Source: an uncultured SAR116 cluster alpha proteobacterium (GTDB lineage Bacteria > Pseudomonadota > Alphaproteobacteria > Puniceispirillales > Puniceispirillaceae). From it: a stretch of 64,000 nucleotides of DNA. How positions within the stretch are numbered: position 1 is the stretch's first letter; each line of letters starts with the position of its first letter. The notes below the pieces were generated by a model. The model saw nothing but the letters and a program-made list of their open reading frames with translations, did not search any database and was not told where the DNA came from. Positions 11,314 through 19,948 of this stretch are shown one piece after another. The DNA is taken from the NCBI GenBank assembly GCA_902622515.1, contig CACNQE010000004.1, forward strand, positions 62,001-126,000, in the 5' to 3' direction. The position numbers and the translations under genes were made by a program.

Positions 11314-11867
11314 TATCTTGTCGTTTCTTTAATAGAAGGGATTAGTAAAGAATTCAAAACTTCATTTGTTATCTCACCAGCATGACGTACAATTATTTTT
11401 CCTTCATTTGAAATTAGAAATGTTTCCGGAATTCCATAAACACCCCAATTAATCGATGTTTTTCCGTCATTATCAAAGCCAATCTTAATAAATGGATCTC
11501 CAAAACGTTCTAAAAAAATGGCTAACTGGTCCGACTTATCTTTATAAGCAACTCCAATTATGGGGATGTGATTGGATAACTTTTCCAGGAAGGGAGCCTC
11601 TTTTTGGCAGGGTGCGCACCAGCTTGCAAAAAAATTAACTGCAAATGGTCCATTCCCCATTAGTTGCTTAAGATCAACTTGTCGTTGAGATGTCGATAAA
11701 GTTGTATCAAATGGAACAAGAATAAGCTCAGGGGCATCTTTGCCAATTAACGGAGAGGGTAGTTGTTCTCTTGCTTGATCTCCATTTAACATTGACATCA
11801 TTGAGACAGCGGAAACGGCTACCAATGCCAAGAAAATCCCAATTGGCAAGAAAAAACGAGCATTCAT
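11313..11867 (-). CDS. ccmG: Thiol:disulfide interchange protein CcmG (DsbE)
   Basis: This membrane-anchored periplasmic thioredoxin keeps apocytochrome c or CcmH reduced before haem attachment. The 184-residue chain has an N-terminal signal-anchor (about 5-25) and a thioredoxin fold. The active site is WCAPC at 83-87, and the GVYGIPETFL segment carries the conserved cis-proline and Glu of the CcmG group. It overlaps ccmF by four bases (ATGA) and ccmH by one, which indicates translational coupling. Confidence 0.95.
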   Translation of the reverse strand: MNARFFLPIGIFLALVAVSAVSMMSMLNGDQAREQLPSPLIGKDAPELILVPFDTTLSTSQRQVDLKQLMGNGPFAVNFFASWCAPCQKEAPFLEKLSNHIPIIGVAYKDKSDQLAIFLERFGDPFIKIGFDNDGKTSINWGVYGIPETFLISNEGKIIVRHAGEITNEVLNSLLIPSIKETTR

Positions 11868-13822
11868 GATTGTAGAGCTTTTTTAGATTTTTTTTGGTAA
11901 TTAATATTTTTTAGTGCTGACACTGCTGCCCCTGATGCCATCAACAATACACCAAACCAAATCCATGATACAAATGGCTTGCGATATAGCCTAATGGTAT
12001 ATCCATCTGTTTGATTACCATCACCAAGTACTGCATAATAATCATGTGTCAGTTTTTGGCGTATTGCAGCCTCTGTAGTTGTCTCTCTCTCTACGGGATA
12101 AATCCTTTTTTCCGGATTTAAGGTTCCGATATAGTTGTCCTGACCATCAATAATGTGGAGTGTTGCAACCAGAGCTTCATAATTACTTCCTGTCCTTGTA
12201 GATATTGACTTCAGCTCTGCTTTGTTAGCACCAATTTGAATTTGTTCTCCTATTCGCATACGAGCGACAGTCTCATTTGTAAAAACACTCTCTCCAAGAG
12301 CGCCAATTAGAAAAATAACAACACCAAAGTGTGCTATCCACATACTCCATTGCAAATGAATAAGACGTTGCCAAAAATCAGATTTATTGTTTCGCTTTAA
12401 TGTGCGAACCTTAATCACCAGGTCACATACGATTGTTGCACCAAGCCAGGTAACAGTCGAAATGCCTGCAATGGCTCCTATAGATAAAACGGTGCTTGCT
12501 TGGACAACAAAAACGATTGTAAGAGCTGTAATGCCAATTCCAAACATCCAAATTTGTTTTGTTTTGCGCATTAAGCCTTGTTTCCAAACCATAAAGGGAC
12601 CAACGCCCATAATTATTACAAGCAGACCCATTATTGGATTAAAGGTTGCTTCAAAAAAAGGAGGTCCTACTGTGATTTTCATTCCCGTAGTCATTTCGAG
12701 TGCGATTGGGTAAAACGTTCCAATCAAGACGACAATAGTGGCACAAATTAGCAGAAAATTATTGGCTATTAATGCTGTTTCCCTACTCACTAAAACCAAG
12801 GGCCCATCTGTTTTTAACTTTGGGCCACGAATTGCGAATAGTATCAACGGCGGTCCGATAGAGATAATGAGAATTCCTAAAATAAATAATCCTCTTGTTG
12901 GGTCTGAGGCAAAGCTGTGGACCGATGTTAGAAGTCCAGAGCGAACAATGAATGTTCCAAGCAATGACAATGAAAACCCAATAATCGCTAGCAGAACAGT
13001 CCAACTTTTGAGTTGTTCTCGTTGCTCAACTACTATTACAGAATGCAATAAAGCAGTTGCAGCAAGCCATGGCATCAGAGATGCATTTTCAACTGGATCC
13101 CAAAACCACCAGCCCCCCCATCCGAGCTCGTAATATGCCCACCAACTTCCAAGGCCAATACCAAGCGTTAGTGCGCACCATGCTATTTGCACCCAGACAC
13201 GCATATACCGGGCCCAGTTTTTATCAAATCTATTTGTTAAAAGAGCAGCCACTGCAAATGAAAAGGCGAGTGATAATCCAACATAACCAACGTATAACGT
13301 TGGTGGGTGAAGCGCTAGCCCAATATCCTGCAACACAGGGTTCAAACCATTGCCGTTTAATGGGATATTCGATAGTCTCTCAAACGGGTTAGAAGTAAAA
13401 AGACAAAAAGCCAAAAATGCAGAACCAATAGAACCTTGAATGCCAAGTATCCAAGATTTTTGTGATATTGGCATTGTTTTTTGTGTAAGCGCTAACCCGG
13501 CGCCAAAAATGGATAAAATCAAAATCCACATTAACAGTGAGCCTTCATGGTTACCCCAAGTACCGGATATTTTATAGATTATTGGTTTTGAAGAATGGGA
13601 ATGCTCAGCTACAAGAGCTACTGAAAAATCGGAGACAATAAATGCCCAAACGAGACTCACGAAAGAGAGTAAAACGCAAATCGCATTCAATAATGTCATT
13701 TTTAGGGTGATTGAGTGCAACTGCTTAAAATTGGAGTTTGATGCAAAAATAGGAAAAACAAATTGGCTAACTGATAAAACAAAAGCGAGCACCAAACAAA
13801 AATGTCCCAACTCGACAATCAT
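11864..13822 (-). CDS. ccmF: Cytochrome c haem lyase subunit CcmF
   Basis: CcmF is the large polytopic inner-membrane protein that receives haem from holo-CcmE and, with CcmH/I, ligates it to apocytochrome c. The 652-residue chain has about a dozen or more hydrophobic segments. The tryptophan-rich WWD signature (WGGWWFWDPVENA) lies at about 235-247, with WGNHEGS at 89-95 and the LHPPTLYVGY histidine segment near 171-180. The start MIVELGHF is typical. It shares ATGA with the ccmE stop and with the ccmG start. Confidence 0.97.
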   Translation of the reverse strand: MIVELGHFCLVLAFVLSVSQFVFPIFASNSNFKQLHSITLKMTLLNAICVLLSFVSLVWAFIVSDFSVALVAEHSHSSKPIIYKISGTWGNHEGSLLMWILILSIFGAGLALTQKTMPISQKSWILGIQGSIGSAFLAFCLFTSNPFERLSNIPLNGNGLNPVLQDIGLALHPPTLYVGYVGLSLAFSFAVAALLTNRFDKNWARYMRVWVQIAWCALTLGIGLGSWWAYYELGWGGWWFWDPVENASLMPWLAATALLHSVIVVEQREQLKSWTVLLAIIGFSLSLLGTFIVRSGLLTSVHSFASDPTRGLFILGILIISIGPPLILFAIRGPKLKTDGPLVLVSRETALIANNFLLICATIVVLIGTFYPIALEMTTGMKITVGPPFFEATFNPIMGLLVIIMGVGPFMVWKQGLMRKTKQIWMFGIGITALTIVFVVQASTVLSIGAIAGISTVTWLGATIVCDLVIKVRTLKRNNKSDFWQRLIHLQWSMWIAHFGVVIFLIGALGESVFTNETVARMRIGEQIQIGANKAELKSISTRTGSNYEALVATLHIIDGQDNYIGTLNPEKRIYPVERETTTEAAIRQKLTHDYYAVLGDGNQTDGYTIRLYRKPFVSWIWFGVLLMASGAAVSALKNINYQKKSKKALQS

Positions 13823-14253
13823 CTGCTCGTATCCCCTTGCCAGACGCCTTGTTCTTTTAGCTTGTCTGCAACCTCACGGGGCATATATTTTTCATCATGC
13901 TTTGCCATTACTACGTTCGCTTTAAAAAATTTGTTTTCGAATTTGCCTTCTGCTATGACGCCTTGACCATCGCGAAAAATATCAGGAAGTGCGCCTGTGT
14001 AAATTACTATCTGCTGACTGGTCGCATCTTCTATGATAAAACGTGTAGTTAAGCCGTTAATATTTATACTGTCTTTTTTCACCAACCCTCCAATACGAAT
14101 AGAGCTACTACCAATTTCTGACCTGTCTAATTCTGAGGGTGTATAGAAGTAAACAATATTTTCTTCTAGGGCTGAAAGTGTCAGTACAGCTGCTAATATG
14201 AGAAAAGCTGCGGCCACACAAAAAAGTATTAATCTATTCGATTTCGGCGACAT
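13819..14253 (-). CDS. ccmE: Cytochrome c-type biogenesis haem chaperone CcmE
   Basis: CcmE is the periplasmic haem chaperone that binds haem covalently and passes it to CcmF. The 144-residue protein has an N-terminal membrane anchor (about 8-28) and an OB-fold. The haem-binding histidine is H119 in AKHDEKYMP, with Y123 as the likely iron ligand. It is the first gene of the ccmE-F-G-H/I unit. The ccmABCD genes that load CcmE are not in this window. Confidence 0.96.
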   Translation of the reverse strand: MSPKSNRLILFCVAAAFLILAAVLTLSALEENIVYFYTPSELDRSEIGSSSIRIGGLVKKDSININGLTTRFIIEDATSQQIVIYTGALPDIFRDGQGVIAEGKFENKFFKANVVMAKHDEKYMPREVADKLKEQGVWQGDTSR

Positions 14254-14662: not shown

Positions 14663-15637
14663 ATGAGAACTTTACTTAAAACTTTATTTTTCTGTTTTAC
14701 TACGGCTGTTTTAACAATATTCAATGTTGGCATCACCTTTGCAGCATCACCATTGGTTTCAGTGGATTGGCTATCGAAAAACCTTCAAGATCCTGAATTA
14801 GTTATTATTGATCTACGTAATTCACTGGATGGCGGTGGACATGAGACGTTCATAGAGGGCCATATCCCAGGTTCAATCCATTCAGATTATATGAAAGCGG
14901 GATGGCGCGTAGCTAGAAACGATATCCCTGGCTTAATTCCTTCAGAGGAACAATTTCAGACACTCGCACGCTCATTAGGCGTAAACCAAAACTCTCATGT
15001 GATAATCGTTCCAGCGGGTGTGTCGTCAACAGATTTTGGCTCTTCTGCCAGAGCGTATTGGACATTTAAATCATTCGGGCACGAAAAAGTATCTATCTTA
15101 AATGGTGGTTGGACAAACTGGAATGAGACCTATCCAGCTCAAATTGAAAGAGGAAATCCATTAGCTCCTAGGAAAGGCAACTTCATCGCTTTGTTAACAA
15201 CTGAAGACTACATTGATACAAACGGAGTGGAGCAAATCGTAATGGATAAAACCGCCAATACCATACTTCTTGATGGGAGACCTGAAAAGCAGTTTTGGGG
15301 AGAGGAAAAACACCCGAAGGTTTTAGCGACCGGACATATTCCTGGAGCAATCCTTTTAACCCAATCAAATGCCTATGACGAAATCAACAATAAGTTAAAA
15401 CCAACAAATATGTTGAATGAAATTTATAGTGATATGCAAAGCAAGCCAGTTGTGAGTTATTGTAACACTGGTCATTGGGCTGCTATGAATTGGTTTGTGT
15501 TATCGGAAATTCTTGGTAATGAAAACGTCACTTTATACGATGGCTCAATGGTGGAGTGGACAAAAGACTCAAACCGTCCATTAATCAAGGAGAAATCTAA
15601 TTTTACTAAAATTAAAGAATTCTTCCGTCTTGGATAA
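14663..15637 (+). CDS. Secreted two-domain rhodanese (thiosulfate/3-mercaptopyruvate sulfurtransferase)
   Basis: This sulfurtransferase moves sulfane sulfur from a donor such as thiosulfate to a thiol or cyanide acceptor. The 324-residue chain starts with a clear signal peptide (about 1-28, hydrophobic core 8-26), so it should act in the periplasm. It has two rhodanese domains. The N-terminal one (about 30-155) is structural. The C-terminal one (about 175-310) carries the active-site loop C-N-T-G-H-W with catalytic C267. It overlaps the downstream YeeE/YedE gene by eight bases, which suggests joint handling of thiosulfate or persulfide. Donor specificity cannot be read from the loop alone. 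Confidence 0.92.
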   Translation: MRTLLKTLFFCFTTAVLTIFNVGITFAASPLVSVDWLSKNLQDPELVIIDLRNSLDGGGHETFIEGHIPGSIHSDYMKAGWRVARNDIPGLIPSEEQFQTLARSLGVNQNSHVIIVPAGVSSTDFGSSARAYWTFKSFGHEKVSILNGGWTNWNETYPAQIERGNPLAPRKGNFIALLTTEDYIDTNGVEQIVMDKTANTILLDGRPEKQFWGEEKHPKVLATGHIPGAILLTQSNAYDEINNKLKPTNMLNEIYSDMQSKPVVSYCNTGHWAAMNWFVLSEILGNENVTLYDGSMVEWTKDSNRPLIKEKSNFTKIKEFFRLG

Positions 15638-16781
15638 GTTTTTAAAACTCAATGTTTTCGAATATCAAACCTTTAGTCTAAAATTGGGTGGTAAAAAAGA
15701 TAATAGTCTTTTATGTCTCCTCGGCGTTATAGCGGCAATAATTGCAGCTTTTGTGGCTATTGATACTGGAAGTAGAGGATTAAGCCTTTTTTTCATTGGT
15801 GGATTATTGGGGATCACATTTCTATATTTTCAATATGGATTTGCTTCCGGCTGGCGAAAATTAATTACTCGAGGTGATACCCGCCCAATTGGGTATCACT
15901 TTGTTTTAGTTGGTTTCTGTAGCCTAGTATATTTACCGATAAGTTACCTGGGACTGGGCTCTTCAGGCAGTTTTGCGCCAATATCCATTTCACTTTTGCT
16001 TGGGTCATTCATATTCGGAATAGGGATGCAGCTTGCAAATGGTTGTGGATCTGGTGTGCTGTTTACCTATGGTAGCGGTTCTGCACGAATGATTTTTGCA
16101 TTACCAGGGTTCATAATAGGGTCAGTTATTGGAAGTCTAATTTTGCCCACAATTTTAAATTTGGGTGCCTTAAACCCAATTGTTATTGGTGGGTCTTCAA
16201 GTTTACTTATTTATTATATATTAAATTCCTTTTTAATTTTTGGCGTGGCAGTCATTTTTTTCACAATCGCCATAAAGTCTGGGCAAAAATTGAGTATAAA
16301 TTGGCTTATTGGAACATCACTGATTTCTCTCTTATGCATTCTTGTTTTCATCATTTCTGGACACCCTTGGGGTGTAACATTTGGGTTTACCGTTTGGGGC
16401 GGCAAGATAGCTATGTTAGCAGGAATTCCCATTGATAAAACCGCATTCTGGCAATGGCCTGGGCCAGCCTTAGCGTTGAAGCAATCTGTTTTTGCAGATG
16501 TCAGTAGCCTGATGAATTTCGGTATGATTATTGGGGCAGGTTTCTGTGCAGCCGTAACGGCGAGTTTTGCTAACCAGCCATGGCCGCCCATCCGTCAATT
16601 AGTAGCTGCAATAATTGGTGGTCTGTTAATGGGCGTAGGGGCGAGATTAGGTTTTGGCTGCAATATTGGTGCTTTTGTTGCTGGTATTTCTTCTGGCAGC
16701 TTACATGGCTGGTTATGGGCATTTTTTGCTTTGCTTGGAAGTTGGGTAGGCATAAAAACTAGGCCTTATTTTGGATTTTAA
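15630..16781 (+). CDS. YeeE/YedE family thiosulfate permease-like protein
   Basis: This 383-residue inner-membrane protein has about nine to ten hydrophobic segments and the sulfur-transport repeats of the YeeE/YedE (TsuA) family. The first signature is LANGCGSG with C139, and the second is GFGCNIGAF with C344. In characterised TsuA, such cysteines line the path that relays thiosulfate. Translation starts at TTG, overlapping the last codons of the rhodanese by eight bases; no ATG fits upstream of residue 133. The pairing with a secreted rhodanese and a cysteine peptide suggests uptake or relay of sulfane sulfur. Confidence 0.88.
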   Translation: MDKFLKLNVFEYQTFSLKLGGKKDNSLLCLLGVIAAIIAAFVAIDTGSRGLSLFFIGGLLGITFLYFQYGFASGWRKLITRGDTRPIGYHFVLVGFCSLVYLPISYLGLGSSGSFAPISISLLLGSFIFGIGMQLANGCGSGVLFTYGSGSARMIFALPGFIIGSVIGSLILPTILNLGALNPIVIGGSSSLLIYYILNSFLIFGVAVIFFTIAIKSGQKLSINWLIGTSLISLLCILVFIISGHPWGVTFGFTVWGGKIAMLAGIPIDKTAFWQWPGPALALKQSVFADVSSLMNFGMIIGAGFCAAVTASFANQPWPPIRQLVAAIIGGLLMGVGARLGFGCNIGAFVAGISSGSLHGWLWAFFALLGSWVGIKTRPYFGF

Positions 16782-16786
16782 AGCAG

Positions 16787-16945
16787 ATGTTTAAATCCCC
16801 CAGAAATACACATGTGCTTTTGCTTTTACTAATATTTCTTCTTAGTAGTTTGGATCATTTAACAAGCCCTGTTACTAAAAGCCTAGCAGCTCCTGCGGAT
16901 AACGCAACGGCTTGTGCGCCATGCGGTGCGCCATGTCCAGAATAA
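16787..16945 (+). CDS. Small secreted cysteine peptide, unrecognised family
   Basis: This is a 52-codon frame starting five bases after the YeeE/YedE stop. It has positive residues K3 and R6, a leucine-rich hydrophobic stretch at 10-22, and a plausible signal peptidase site near S-L-A-A (32-35). The mature tail would be about 17 residues ending C-A-P-C-G-A-P-C-P-E, with cysteines at 43, 46 and 50. It could alternatively stay membrane-anchored. The tight spacing suggests translational coupling. I do not recognise the family. A role as a periplasmic sulfur or metal carrier for the adjacent transporter is a guess. Confidence 0.65.
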   Translation: MFKSPRNTHVLLLLLIFLLSSLDHLTSPVTKSLAAPADNATACAPCGAPCPE

Positions 16946-17110: not shown

Positions 17111-18037
17111 ATGTTAGTTCCTATTTTTCATCATTATCCGCAATCGCCAATAGCAGAAAAAATTCGGATGACATTCGGTATAATGGGTCTTGATTGGTAC
17201 TCTGTCCAAATACCACGTATTCCTCCGAAGCCACTGTTGACCCCACTTACTGGCGGATATCGGAGAACACCTGTCTTGCAAGTGGGCGCAGATATATTTT
17301 GTGATAGTCAGTGTATAGCTTTTCAACTTGGTAAGCTAAAAAGCGAGAAAGTGGCATATCTGTCATCCAATAGGGCGTTAGAGTTAATTTTAGGAAGTTT
17401 TGGAGAAAATATTTTATTTAAACTTACAGTAAGGATAGTACTGACCACGTCTATGGGAGTGGCGCCTGAAGATTTTATCAAAGATAGGAGTTCTCTGTAT
17501 TTCGAGCCTGGATGGACAGTTGAAGAGATGCAGAACTCTCTTCCAAGTGTTCTTTTACAATTGCAATCAGCGTTTGAGCTTATAAATCATCATCTCACAT
17601 CACACGGTCCTTATATGAATGGAAACAATCCAAGCTATGCAGATGCGGTAATACAACATTGTGTGTGGTTTCTATGTGGAAGATGGGATGGAGGTGATAG
17701 TTTTATTGCTCCCTTCAAAGCAATTATTAAACATCGTGATCTAATAACCCAAATGGGACATGGTTCTTTCATTGATTGTGCACCGGAGGAAGCATTAAAA
17801 ATAGCTAGAAACCATATTTCCACTGCCCCTAGCGGAATAAATTGTGCCTATACTGGAAAGTTAAAAATAGGAGAACGGGTTCTTATAAGGCCAAACGGCA
17901 AAACATCTGACCCCGATGTGATGGGGATTTTACGATATTTGGACCAAAATATTATTATTATAGATTATGAACATGAAGATGTTGGAATGGTTTCAATTCA
18001 TTTCCCAGTATTGGGGTATCAGTTGTCAGCCCTTTAA
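17111..18037 (+). CDS. Glutathione S-transferase family protein with extra C-terminal domain
   Basis: This is a 308-residue soluble protein. Residues 1-80 form a thioredoxin-like GST N-domain: the strand LVPIFHHYPQSPIAEKIR is followed by the RTPVLQV cis-proline strand and FCDSQCIA, which would contact the glutathione glutamyl group. A helical GST C-domain covers about 90-235. Beyond it, residues 240-308 form a small beta-rich extension (GERVLIRPNG) not found in ordinary GSTs. Substrate and reaction cannot be stated. It stands alone between the sulfur cassette and the septation-like gene. Confidence 0.75.
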   Translation: MLVPIFHHYPQSPIAEKIRMTFGIMGLDWYSVQIPRIPPKPLLTPLTGGYRRTPVLQVGADIFCDSQCIAFQLGKLKSEKVAYLSSNRALELILGSFGENILFKLTVRIVLTTSMGVAPEDFIKDRSSLYFEPGWTVEEMQNSLPSVLLQLQSAFELINHHLTSHGPYMNGNNPSYADAVIQHCVWFLCGRWDGGDSFIAPFKAIIKHRDLITQMGHGSFIDCAPEEALKIARNHISTAPSGINCAYTGKLKIGERVLIRPNGKTSDPDVMGILRYLDQNIIIIDYEHEDVGMVSIHFPVLGYQLSAL

Positions 18038-18086
18038 ATTAAATGAGCTCTCAAAATATCTCAAATTGAGACCAAAATTTATATAT

Positions 18087-18659
18087 TTAGTCAGACCTTG
18101 GTACTTTGCCCTTGATAGTTAGAGGTATAAGAGATGCCATGAATAAAGCCGTTGCTGGTGCGAAGATGAACACTTTCACGATCACCCAACCCTCATCATC
18201 GAGCAGTCTCCATGCGAATTCATTTGCGATCGCTAGACAAAGAAAAAATATTGACCATCGCATAGAGAGTTGCATCCATGTATAATGATTAAGAGAGAAT
18301 TGCTTTCCAAAGAATAATTTCATCACAGGATAGTTTCTAGCCCAGCCTAGTAACAATAAAAATGCAAACGCAATGTTAAATAAACTAGCTTGAATTTTTA
18401 TAAAAAAAGTTTCCTCCGTGATAAATGCTATTGAAACAAATAATATTGAAATGATGGTCGAAAATAGTGGAAAAAATAAAATCGATTTATCTTTAGCAAA
18501 TTGAAAAAAAATAAGGATAGCGGAGGCTAAGATAGCAGCAGCTGCGCCGATATGTAATGAGTAGAAAGATGTACCTATAAAAAGTGCAGCTAGAGGTGCG
18601 GTCTCCACCAAAACGGAAACAAACGGCTTTGCGGTTATATAAAATTTCCTTATTTTCAT
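18087..18659 (-). CDS. Inner membrane septation protein A family (IspZ/YciB)
   Basis: This 190-residue integral membrane protein has about five to six hydrophobic helices. It contains FGKQFSLNHYTWMQLSMRW followed by ANEFAWR, which match the conserved core of the septation protein A / YciB family. That family is linked to cell-envelope integrity and division, though its molecular activity is not settled. The gene is transcribed alone, convergent with the GST-like gene and divergent from phhB. Confidence 0.85.
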   Translation of the reverse strand: MKIRKFYITAKPFVSVLVETAPLAALFIGTSFYSLHIGAAAAILASAILIFFQFAKDKSILFFPLFSTIISILFVSIAFITEETFFIKIQASLFNIAFAFLLLLGWARNYPVMKLFFGKQFSLNHYTWMQLSMRWSIFFLCLAIANEFAWRLLDDEGWVIVKVFIFAPATALFMASLIPLTIKGKVPRSD

Positions 18660-18847
18660 AGTATTTTATTTAATTCTGAAATCAAAAAAAGGAAGAAGCC
18701 TGATAAATTTGATTTAATTATGTCTTTTTTTGAATGTGTTTTTTAATAAATGGTGTGTGTTATGCTAATTTAATTTAGCAAACTTAGGAATATACTTGTC
18801 ATATAAGTTGCTGCGTGTGATAAATTGCATAGTTGAAGTAAAAAAAT

Positions 18848-18869
18848 AAAATGTGTCAAAAAACATTTT
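18848..18869 (+). other. Hairpin just upstream of the phhB ribosome-binding site
   Basis: A perfect 7-bp inverted repeat, AAAATGT (18848-18854) and ACATTTT (18863-18869), encloses an 8-base loop and is followed by TT and then the GGAGA ribosome-binding site of phhB. It could be a weak attenuator or an RNA structure affecting translation, or simply chance in AT-rich DNA. Confidence 0.3.
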
Positions 18870-18881
18870 TTGGAGAAATAG

Positions 18882-19193
18882 TTGCCAATATTATTAGATG
18901 ATAATGCAATAGAAGTTCTAAAATCTGAGCAGAACAGTTGGTCATTTGAAACCGACGGTAGGGCGATGAATATAGAACTCAAGTTTGATGGCTTTCCTTC
19001 TGCCATAGGTTTTATTATGCAAGTTGCCATTATCGCTGATAAAATGAATCATCATCCTGAGTGGTCAAATGTATATAGCACAGTGAAAATAAGGCTCACT
19101 ACGCACGATGCAGGAGGTATTACGGACCTCGACGAAGCTCTTGCTAAAAAAATTGACAAAATAGCGTTGCAATTAGGTGCTATCAGCATTTAA
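18882..19193 (+). CDS. phhB: 4a-hydroxytetrahydrobiopterin dehydratase (pterin-4a-carbinolamine dehydratase)
   Basis: This small cytosolic enzyme dehydrates the pterin-4a-carbinolamine formed by aromatic amino acid hydroxylases, or a related pterin. The 103-residue chain has the hallmark KMNHHPEW segment with paired active-site histidines, followed by [16 protein letters not shown], typical of the DCoH/PhhB fold. Translation most likely starts at TTG18882, placed six bases after GGAGA. Its stop overlaps the start of the TauE-like gene by one base. No phenylalanine hydroxylase gene is nearby. Confidence 0.9.
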
Positions 19194-19948
19194 TGAATGA
19201 ATTTGCATCTGAATACTATTGGATAATTATTTCAAGCTCATTTTTTCTTGCTGGAATAGTTAAAGGAACACTCGGCCTTGGTTTGCCCACCACTGCGATT
19301 ACCATCTTAACTTTTTTTCTCCCTCCATTGGATGCGGTAATGATTAATGTTATCCCAGTCCTAATTTTGAATAGTTGGCAGTATTATCAAGCGGAGGACC
19401 ATCTTTTTGTAGTTAGAAAGTATTGGCGTTTAGCAGCCTGGATGATTGCAAGTCTGGCTGTATTTTCTTTTGTTACTGTTCATTTATCCAGTGAACTAAT
19501 CAAGCTCTGGATTGGTGTCGGTATAATAAGCTTTTTAGTTACAAATTTAAGAGGAAGTGGTTGGTATATTCGGCCTGAAAAGATGAGGATTTGGCAGCCC
19601 CTTGTTGGTATCATATCTGGTTTTGTCGGTGGTCCAACAGTGCTTTGGGCAATTCCGCTTACCATTTATCTAATAGCAGCGAAAATTCCAAAGAGGGAAT
19701 TTGTTGATACCATGGGTTTTCTCTTATTAGTAGGATGTATGCCTGTTTTGTTTGGATATTTGTCGACAGAGGTCTTAGTTCTTTCTGAAATTTGGTTTCC
19801 AAGTATAGTAGCAACATTGGTGGCAACTATGGGATTTGTTATTGGGCAATCAATACGGGAAAAAATATCGACTGATTTATTTAGAAATCTTTTATTATGG
19901 ATGTTCTTCATCATGGGGATGCGAATGATAGTAGAAGCAATCTTATAA
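19193..19948 (+). CDS. TauE/SafE family membrane transporter
   Basis: This is a 251-residue protein with about seven to eight hydrophobic helices. It contains GIVKGTLGLGLPTTAI near the N-terminus and a second GIISGFVGGPTVLWAIP in the middle, the two repeats of the sulfite exporter TauE/SafE fold. Family members export sulfite, sulfoacetate or other small organosulfur anions; the substrate here is not known. The ATG overlaps the phhB stop (TAATG), so the two are translationally coupled. Confidence 0.88.
   Translation: MNEFASEYYWIIISSSFFLAGIVKGTLGLGLPTTAITILTFFLPPLDAVMINVIPVLILNSWQYYQAEDHLFVVRKYWRLAAWMIASLAVFSFVTVHLSSELIKLWIGVGIISFLVTNLRGSGWYIRPEKMRIWQPLVGIISGFVGGPTVLWAIPLTIYLIAAKIPKREFVDTMGFLLLVGCMPVLFGYLSTEVLVLSEIWFPSIVATLVATMGFVIGQSIREKISTDLFRNLLLWMFFIMGMRMIVEAIL

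Follow-up and report, generated by a model that had tools for sequence, protein, structure and literature searches.

The 52-residue frame at 16787..16945 (+ strand) of the window, by which we mean the whole 64,000-nucleotide stretch of SAR116 DNA that was analysed, is a genuine conserved gene. Its product appears to be an undescribed third component of a YeeE-family sulfur-import module; the family itself is solid, and we infer its chemistry. The best explanation, to which we give a probability of about 50%, is a three-gene sulfur module in which an exported rhodanese, a YeeE-type channel and a tethered thiol tail would together relay sulfur. The peptide (MFKSPRNTHVLLLLLIFLLSSLDHLTSPVTKSLAAPADNATACAPCGAPCPE, followed by a stop) begins 5 bases after the stop codon of the YeeE gene (16779-16781), and its C-terminal end is CAPCGAPCPE. 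Translation thus bears out an earlier note on this DNA, which had described 52 residues, a distance of five bases from YeeE and a C-A-P-C-G-A-P-C tail with three cysteines. The N-terminus is short and basic and is followed by one hydrophobic segment (residues 8-22, 16808..16852), predicted from its sequence and from an AlphaFold2 model of a relative (L033) to be a single membrane helix, by the juxtamembrane block DHLTSP (16853..16870), by a linker and by the CAPCGAPC tail (16913..16936) with Cys43, Cys46 and Cys50.

A chance open reading frame is excluded, because both position and sequence are kept in relatives, the substitutions are biased by codon position, dN/dS is low and the tail is unchanged. 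Among four close relatives, substitutions at codon positions 1, 2 and 3 number 43, 6 and 95. The dN/dS values, a check proposed in the earlier note, are 0.06-0.37 between the window's peptide and its three closest relatives and mostly 0.04-0.45 in 36 within-group pairs of peptide genes. In these 36 comparisons (18 genes), the tail shows no nonsynonymous difference and many silent changes. The cysteines, whose conservation was likewise to be checked, are present in all 33 distinct sequences.

These data also bear on whether the frame is a cysteine-rich leader (attenuator) peptide, in which ribosome stalling at Cys codons would control a downstream gene. It is short and rich in cysteine, and a model of Cys-rich leader peptides is hit weakly by one member of the 33, at a non-significant E=0.058. 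However, the silent sites vary freely, the helix and the D-H-L-x-S block are conserved as protein, and the peptide gene is the last of its unit, the next gene being on the opposite strand in L034-L037. Gene order thus largely refutes a leader peptide, which we find scarcely credible.

The distribution of the peptide follows that of its neighbors. The 61 SAR116-family genomes were searched separately with YeeE and with the peptide; peptide homologues are present in 26 of them, a close YeeE is present in 26, and the peptide lies directly behind this YeeE in 26 of 26. The homologous frame that the earlier note expected beside the rhodanese-YeeE pair in relatives is therefore found. The peptide is absent from those of the 61 genomes that have no close YeeE, and in two genomes, G026 and G032, the sole YeeE is a distant one (36-37% identical) that has no peptide beside it. 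The same order of YeeE and peptide occurs in two other alphaproteobacterial lineages, SP279 and MarineAlpha2 (L036 and L037), and the peptide is also found in several gammaproteobacterial families, including Marinobacter guineae and Halomonas getboli, with a linker about 8 residues longer. Outside SAR116 the peptide is sparse: in a sample of 369 gammaproteobacterial genomes, eight have a match at E<=0.001, and one of the eight (L168) is a chance match. No match was found in phage records, plasmids or IMG/VR. The class- and phylum-level matches with E values of about 1e-4 to 1e-2 (L113-L125, L130-L135 and L168) are chance-like and none of them adjoins YeeE; L167 (E=1.7e-4) is a true divergent member that adjoins a rhodanese-YeeE pair. 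In Falsochrobactrum (L039), a 90-aa frame with a similar start overlaps the YeeE stop and has one hydrophobic segment, then ADYAVSD and two NPC motifs; it is possibly an analogous YeeE partner.

Every strong peptide match lies directly after YeeE, with a rhodanese recognisable upstream where the stretch is long enough. The exception is L126 (genome G498), in which YeeE is broken, with only fragments in several frames, and the peptide gene behind it has stayed intact and conserved. Among 80 YeeE loci from named genomes, the peptide is present at all 11 that have a rhodanese upstream and at none of the 69 that do not (Fisher p about 1e-13, for loci that are not phylogenetically independent). The linkage to the rhodanese-YeeE pair is strict. 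The genes outside the triad, listed as ORFs, differ among lineages and the triad stays together. Since the surrounding neighborhoods vary in this way, we take the rhodanese, YeeE and the peptide to be the unit. Downstream of the triad in the window's genus (17111-19948) lie a GST-like gene, an IspA family gene, a pterin-4a-carbinolamine dehydratase gene and a TauE/SafE sulfite-exporter-like gene, and the tested genes have the same order in L030-L032.

Only five positions are invariant in the 33 sequences: D23, C43, P45, C46 and C50, the first of which is an aspartate at the membrane edge. The tail reads CAPCGAPC in 31 of the 33; the two variants are CAPCGQAC (L167) and CSPCAPC (L038), the latter with the second and third cysteines closer together by one residue (C-x2-C-x2-C). 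In the members, an uninterrupted hydrophobic segment of 13-16 residues follows the basic N-terminus and precedes the D-H-L-x-S block, and D23 with this context is conserved across two classes. Counted from D23, the first cysteine comes at a distance of exactly 20 residues in 19 members, of 21 in two others and of 23-33 in the remainder. The peptide does not have the mark of a bacterial lipoprotein: its first cysteine is 20-33 residues past the hydrophobic segment, and there is no lipobox. In an AlphaFold2 prediction of a read-through YeeE-peptide fusion of L033, YeeE and one helix for the hydrophobic part (pLDDT about 77-79) are predicted, and the tail is disordered (pLDDT about 38-52).

The earlier note had pictured a secreted peptide with a mature part of about 17 residues, i.e., one whose signal peptide is cleaved off to leave a soluble periplasmic tail. 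The periplasmic side of this proposal is still the favored reading, and the cleaved, free form is probably wrong. An A-x-A-like site (SLA-APA) does precede the tail in the window's own genus, but cleavage sites are weak or absent in several members (e.g., L036, ...DYLNSPNIKIKKNSISENSINC..., has no convincing one), and D-H-L-x-S is conserved directly after the hydrophobic core. We prefer an anchored tail because a conserved block of this kind would be needless in a discarded signal peptide and because the length of the linker is nearly fixed, and a free peptide seems highly improbable. The product is probably an uncleaved N-in/C-out single-pass anchor, as judged from hydrophobicity and flanking charges, and its tail would lie in the periplasm.

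An anchor of this type could also be a structural or regulatory subunit of YeeE, with its helix packed on the transporter and its tail cysteines forming a disulfide or plugging the periplasmic mouth, so that no sulfur would be carried. The exact gene linkage to YeeE and the conserved juxtamembrane block would fit such a subunit, as would the 56-aa, Cys-free single-helix protein that adjoins SoxT1A (PMC11582611). However, it is the tail and not the helix that is most conserved, and the occurrence of the tail follows not only YeeE but also the rhodanese; we consider a subunit of this kind unlikely.

The two partners are sulfur proteins. The rhodanese-family sulfurtransferase (14663..15637, + strand) matches PF00581 (E=1.8e-30) and has a signal-peptide-like N-terminus, in agreement with the secreted rhodanese of the earlier note; its best PDB match is the E. 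coli 3-mercaptopyruvate sulfurtransferase 1urh (E=2.6e-33). The catalytic Cys267 (codon 15461-15463), in the CNTGHWAA active-site loop, is the only invariant cysteine among 10 triad rhodaneses. The YeeE/YedE-family (Sulf_transp) membrane protein (15630..16781, + strand; PF04143, E=2.1e-46) aligns with TsuA 6leo over its length (E=6e-14; Foldseek E=3.9e-10). In TsuA, thiosulfate is relayed from outside to inside via C293, C91 and C22, and C22 meets the TusA-like YeeD (PMC11073785). Cys139 (16044-16046) and Cys344 (16659-16661) of the window's protein correspond to C91 and C293, respectively, and both equivalents occur in all 41 sequences of the alignment; by alignment column counts, the C22 position is not a cysteine in triad YeeE. 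The family assignment in the earlier note was thus right, and the designation as thiosulfate-permease-like is uncertain for a protein that is without the cysteine that meets YeeD. Many non-triad YeeE relatives (among L040-L109; Acinetobacter, Bacillus, Duganella and Pseudomonas) end in a cysteine (LTGC, DTFC, QTGC), whereas the triad YeeE proteins have no C-terminal cysteine.

Because the partners are constant, the cysteines invariant and the tail presumably periplasmic, we propose a relay from the rhodanese persulfide to the tail and on to the outer YeeE cysteine. Rhodanese Cys267 would be persulfidated by a sulfane-sulfur donor in the periplasm, such as thiosulfate or polysulfide. The small single-pass peptide, whose linker of 20-30 residues would hold CAPCGAPC in the periplasm, would bind this sulfur to its cysteines in persulfide or polysulfide form and offer it to Cys344 of YeeE, from which it would then pass inward. 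The persulfide chemistry and the direction of transfer are presumed. A periplasmic sulfur role, which the earlier note had found attractive along with metal binding, seems the most economical reading of the peptide.

One point against the relay is that Cys-x-Pro-Cys motifs also serve in thiol-disulfide exchange or metal binding, and another is the low confidence of the tail in the structure model. The main rival is a thiol-disulfide partner, in which the CAPC/C dithiols would give electrons (or accept a disulfide), the rhodanese persulfide would be discharged as sulfide or polysulfide that enters via YeeE, and electrons rather than sulfur would be carried, a role that has been put forward for SoxS and for the DsbA-like protein beside SoxT proteins. 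The likeness of CAPC to CxPC redox motifs fits this, as does the placing of SoxS/DsbA-like thiol oxidoreductases beside SoxT in published models (PMC11582611). However, there is no thioredoxin fold or other domain to tune a dithiol, the third cysteine is equally invariant, and no constant extra partner that could feed electrons lies beside the triad in other lineages, and we regard this role as less likely than the relay. A metal-binding peptide, in which CxxCxxxC would hold a soft metal such as Cu(I) or Zn in the periplasm, is suggested by three cysteines within 8 residues at a free end and by the CcmE and CcmF-like cytochrome c maturation genes that adjoin the triad in the window (11864-14253, - strand, divergent and upstream of the rhodanese). 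But near triads of other genera than the window's no CcmE match was found, it is with sulfur proteins that the peptide is constantly associated and L038 alters the cysteine spacing, and metal binding appears quite improbable.

Returning to the sulfur relay, we would tentatively go one step further and suggest that the CAPCGAPC peptides are an undescribed sulfur carrier, namely a minimal membrane-tethered swinging arm of about 50 residues that moves sulfane sulfur from a periplasmic rhodanese to a YeeE channel in organisms that mostly have no SoxYZ. If true, such an arm would do a job that is done elsewhere by a globular periplasmic carrier. It is an open question (PMC11582611) by what route sulfane sulfur gets across the inner membrane and which component offers it to YeeE-type channels from outside. 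The triad is a compact unit, is found both in bacteria abundant in the ocean and in the culturable Marinobacter and Halomonas, and offers a three-gene system with a single motif of three cysteines.

The earlier note knew of no described family for the peptide, and the databases agree: when the 33 members were compared with Pfam, NCBIfam and PHROGs, no family was matched by more than two of them (best E=0.0084, one member), and there was no convincing match in the PDB. Pfam and NCBIfam thus lack a gene that is highly conserved and about 50 codons long. Absence from databases is not proof that it has gone unnoticed, and the peptide may carry the label "hypothetical" in automatic annotation. CAPCGAPC was not found in the literature searched, a scope that left most subscription papers outside, and no literature linking SAR116, rhodanese and thiosulfate was found there.

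Several known systems resemble the triad in part. The window's rhodanese matches ExtH (NF040901), a rhodanese of selenite/tellurite operons, with E=9.4e-21, but at 74 bits it stays well short of the cut-off of 200 and does not belong to that family under the curated threshold. In the thiosulfate uptake system TsuA/YeeE and TsuB/YeeD (6leo, 8k1r), the importer is of the same family as triad YeeE, in which two of the relay cysteines, the first and the second, are retained. However, triad YeeE scores far under the cut-offs of the NCBIfam TsuA models, and it is partnered by a rhodanese in the periplasm and a peptide in the membrane. Because C22 is lacking and no YeeD/TusA gene lies in the unit, the triad is not a YeeE-YeeD system and its cytoplasmic hand-over must differ. 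TusA is encoded elsewhere in SAR116 genomes, in 22 of 26 with the triad and 27 of 35 without it, i.e., with no association; the assembly to which the window belongs gave no TusA match. Sulfite reductase (PF01077) served as a marker for a triad that takes the place of sulfate assimilation, an idea that was rejected: the enzyme is present in 9 of 26 and 7 of 35 of these genomes, respectively (p=0.25, no association).

The SoxT1A and SoxT1B modules likewise have a YeeE-like importer beside a periplasmic thiol protein, and a further neighbor of SoxT1A is the single-helix protein mentioned above (PMC11582611). In Hyphomicrobium denitrificans, a DsbA-like protein with a C-terminal CxxC lies beside SoxT1A and has a proposed role in sulfur delivery; in the SoxT models, DsbA-like and SoxS proteins are proposed either to act on sulfur or to hand it to YeeE-like importers (PMC11582611). 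Both the relay and the thiol-disulfide role thus have a precedent in these models. The differences are that the SoxT1A/SoxT1B partners are DsbA-like or SoxS proteins and SoxYZ, that the 56-aa protein has no cysteine, and that most triad genomes have no SoxY.

In the SAR116 family, SoxY is present in 3 of 26 triad genomes and 19 of 35 others (Fisher p=0.001), a negative association that weakens to p=0.06 in genomes that are at least 90% complete and that is confounded by phylogeny. SoxB is mostly absent from triad genomes, and both observations speak against a sox-linked SoxT module. In SoxYZ, sulfur is held by a SoxY cysteine close to the flexible C-terminal end. The peptide would work in an analogous way, with C-terminal cysteines on a flexible periplasmic arm, but no sequence relation was seen, and the peptide is predicted to be membrane-tethered and has three cysteines. 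The tendency of triad and SoxY to exclude each other is no more than suggestive, and it is consistent with another periplasmic carrier. SoxY/SoxB and the triad are rarely found together in the family and may mark two sulfur strategies within the SAR116 clade.
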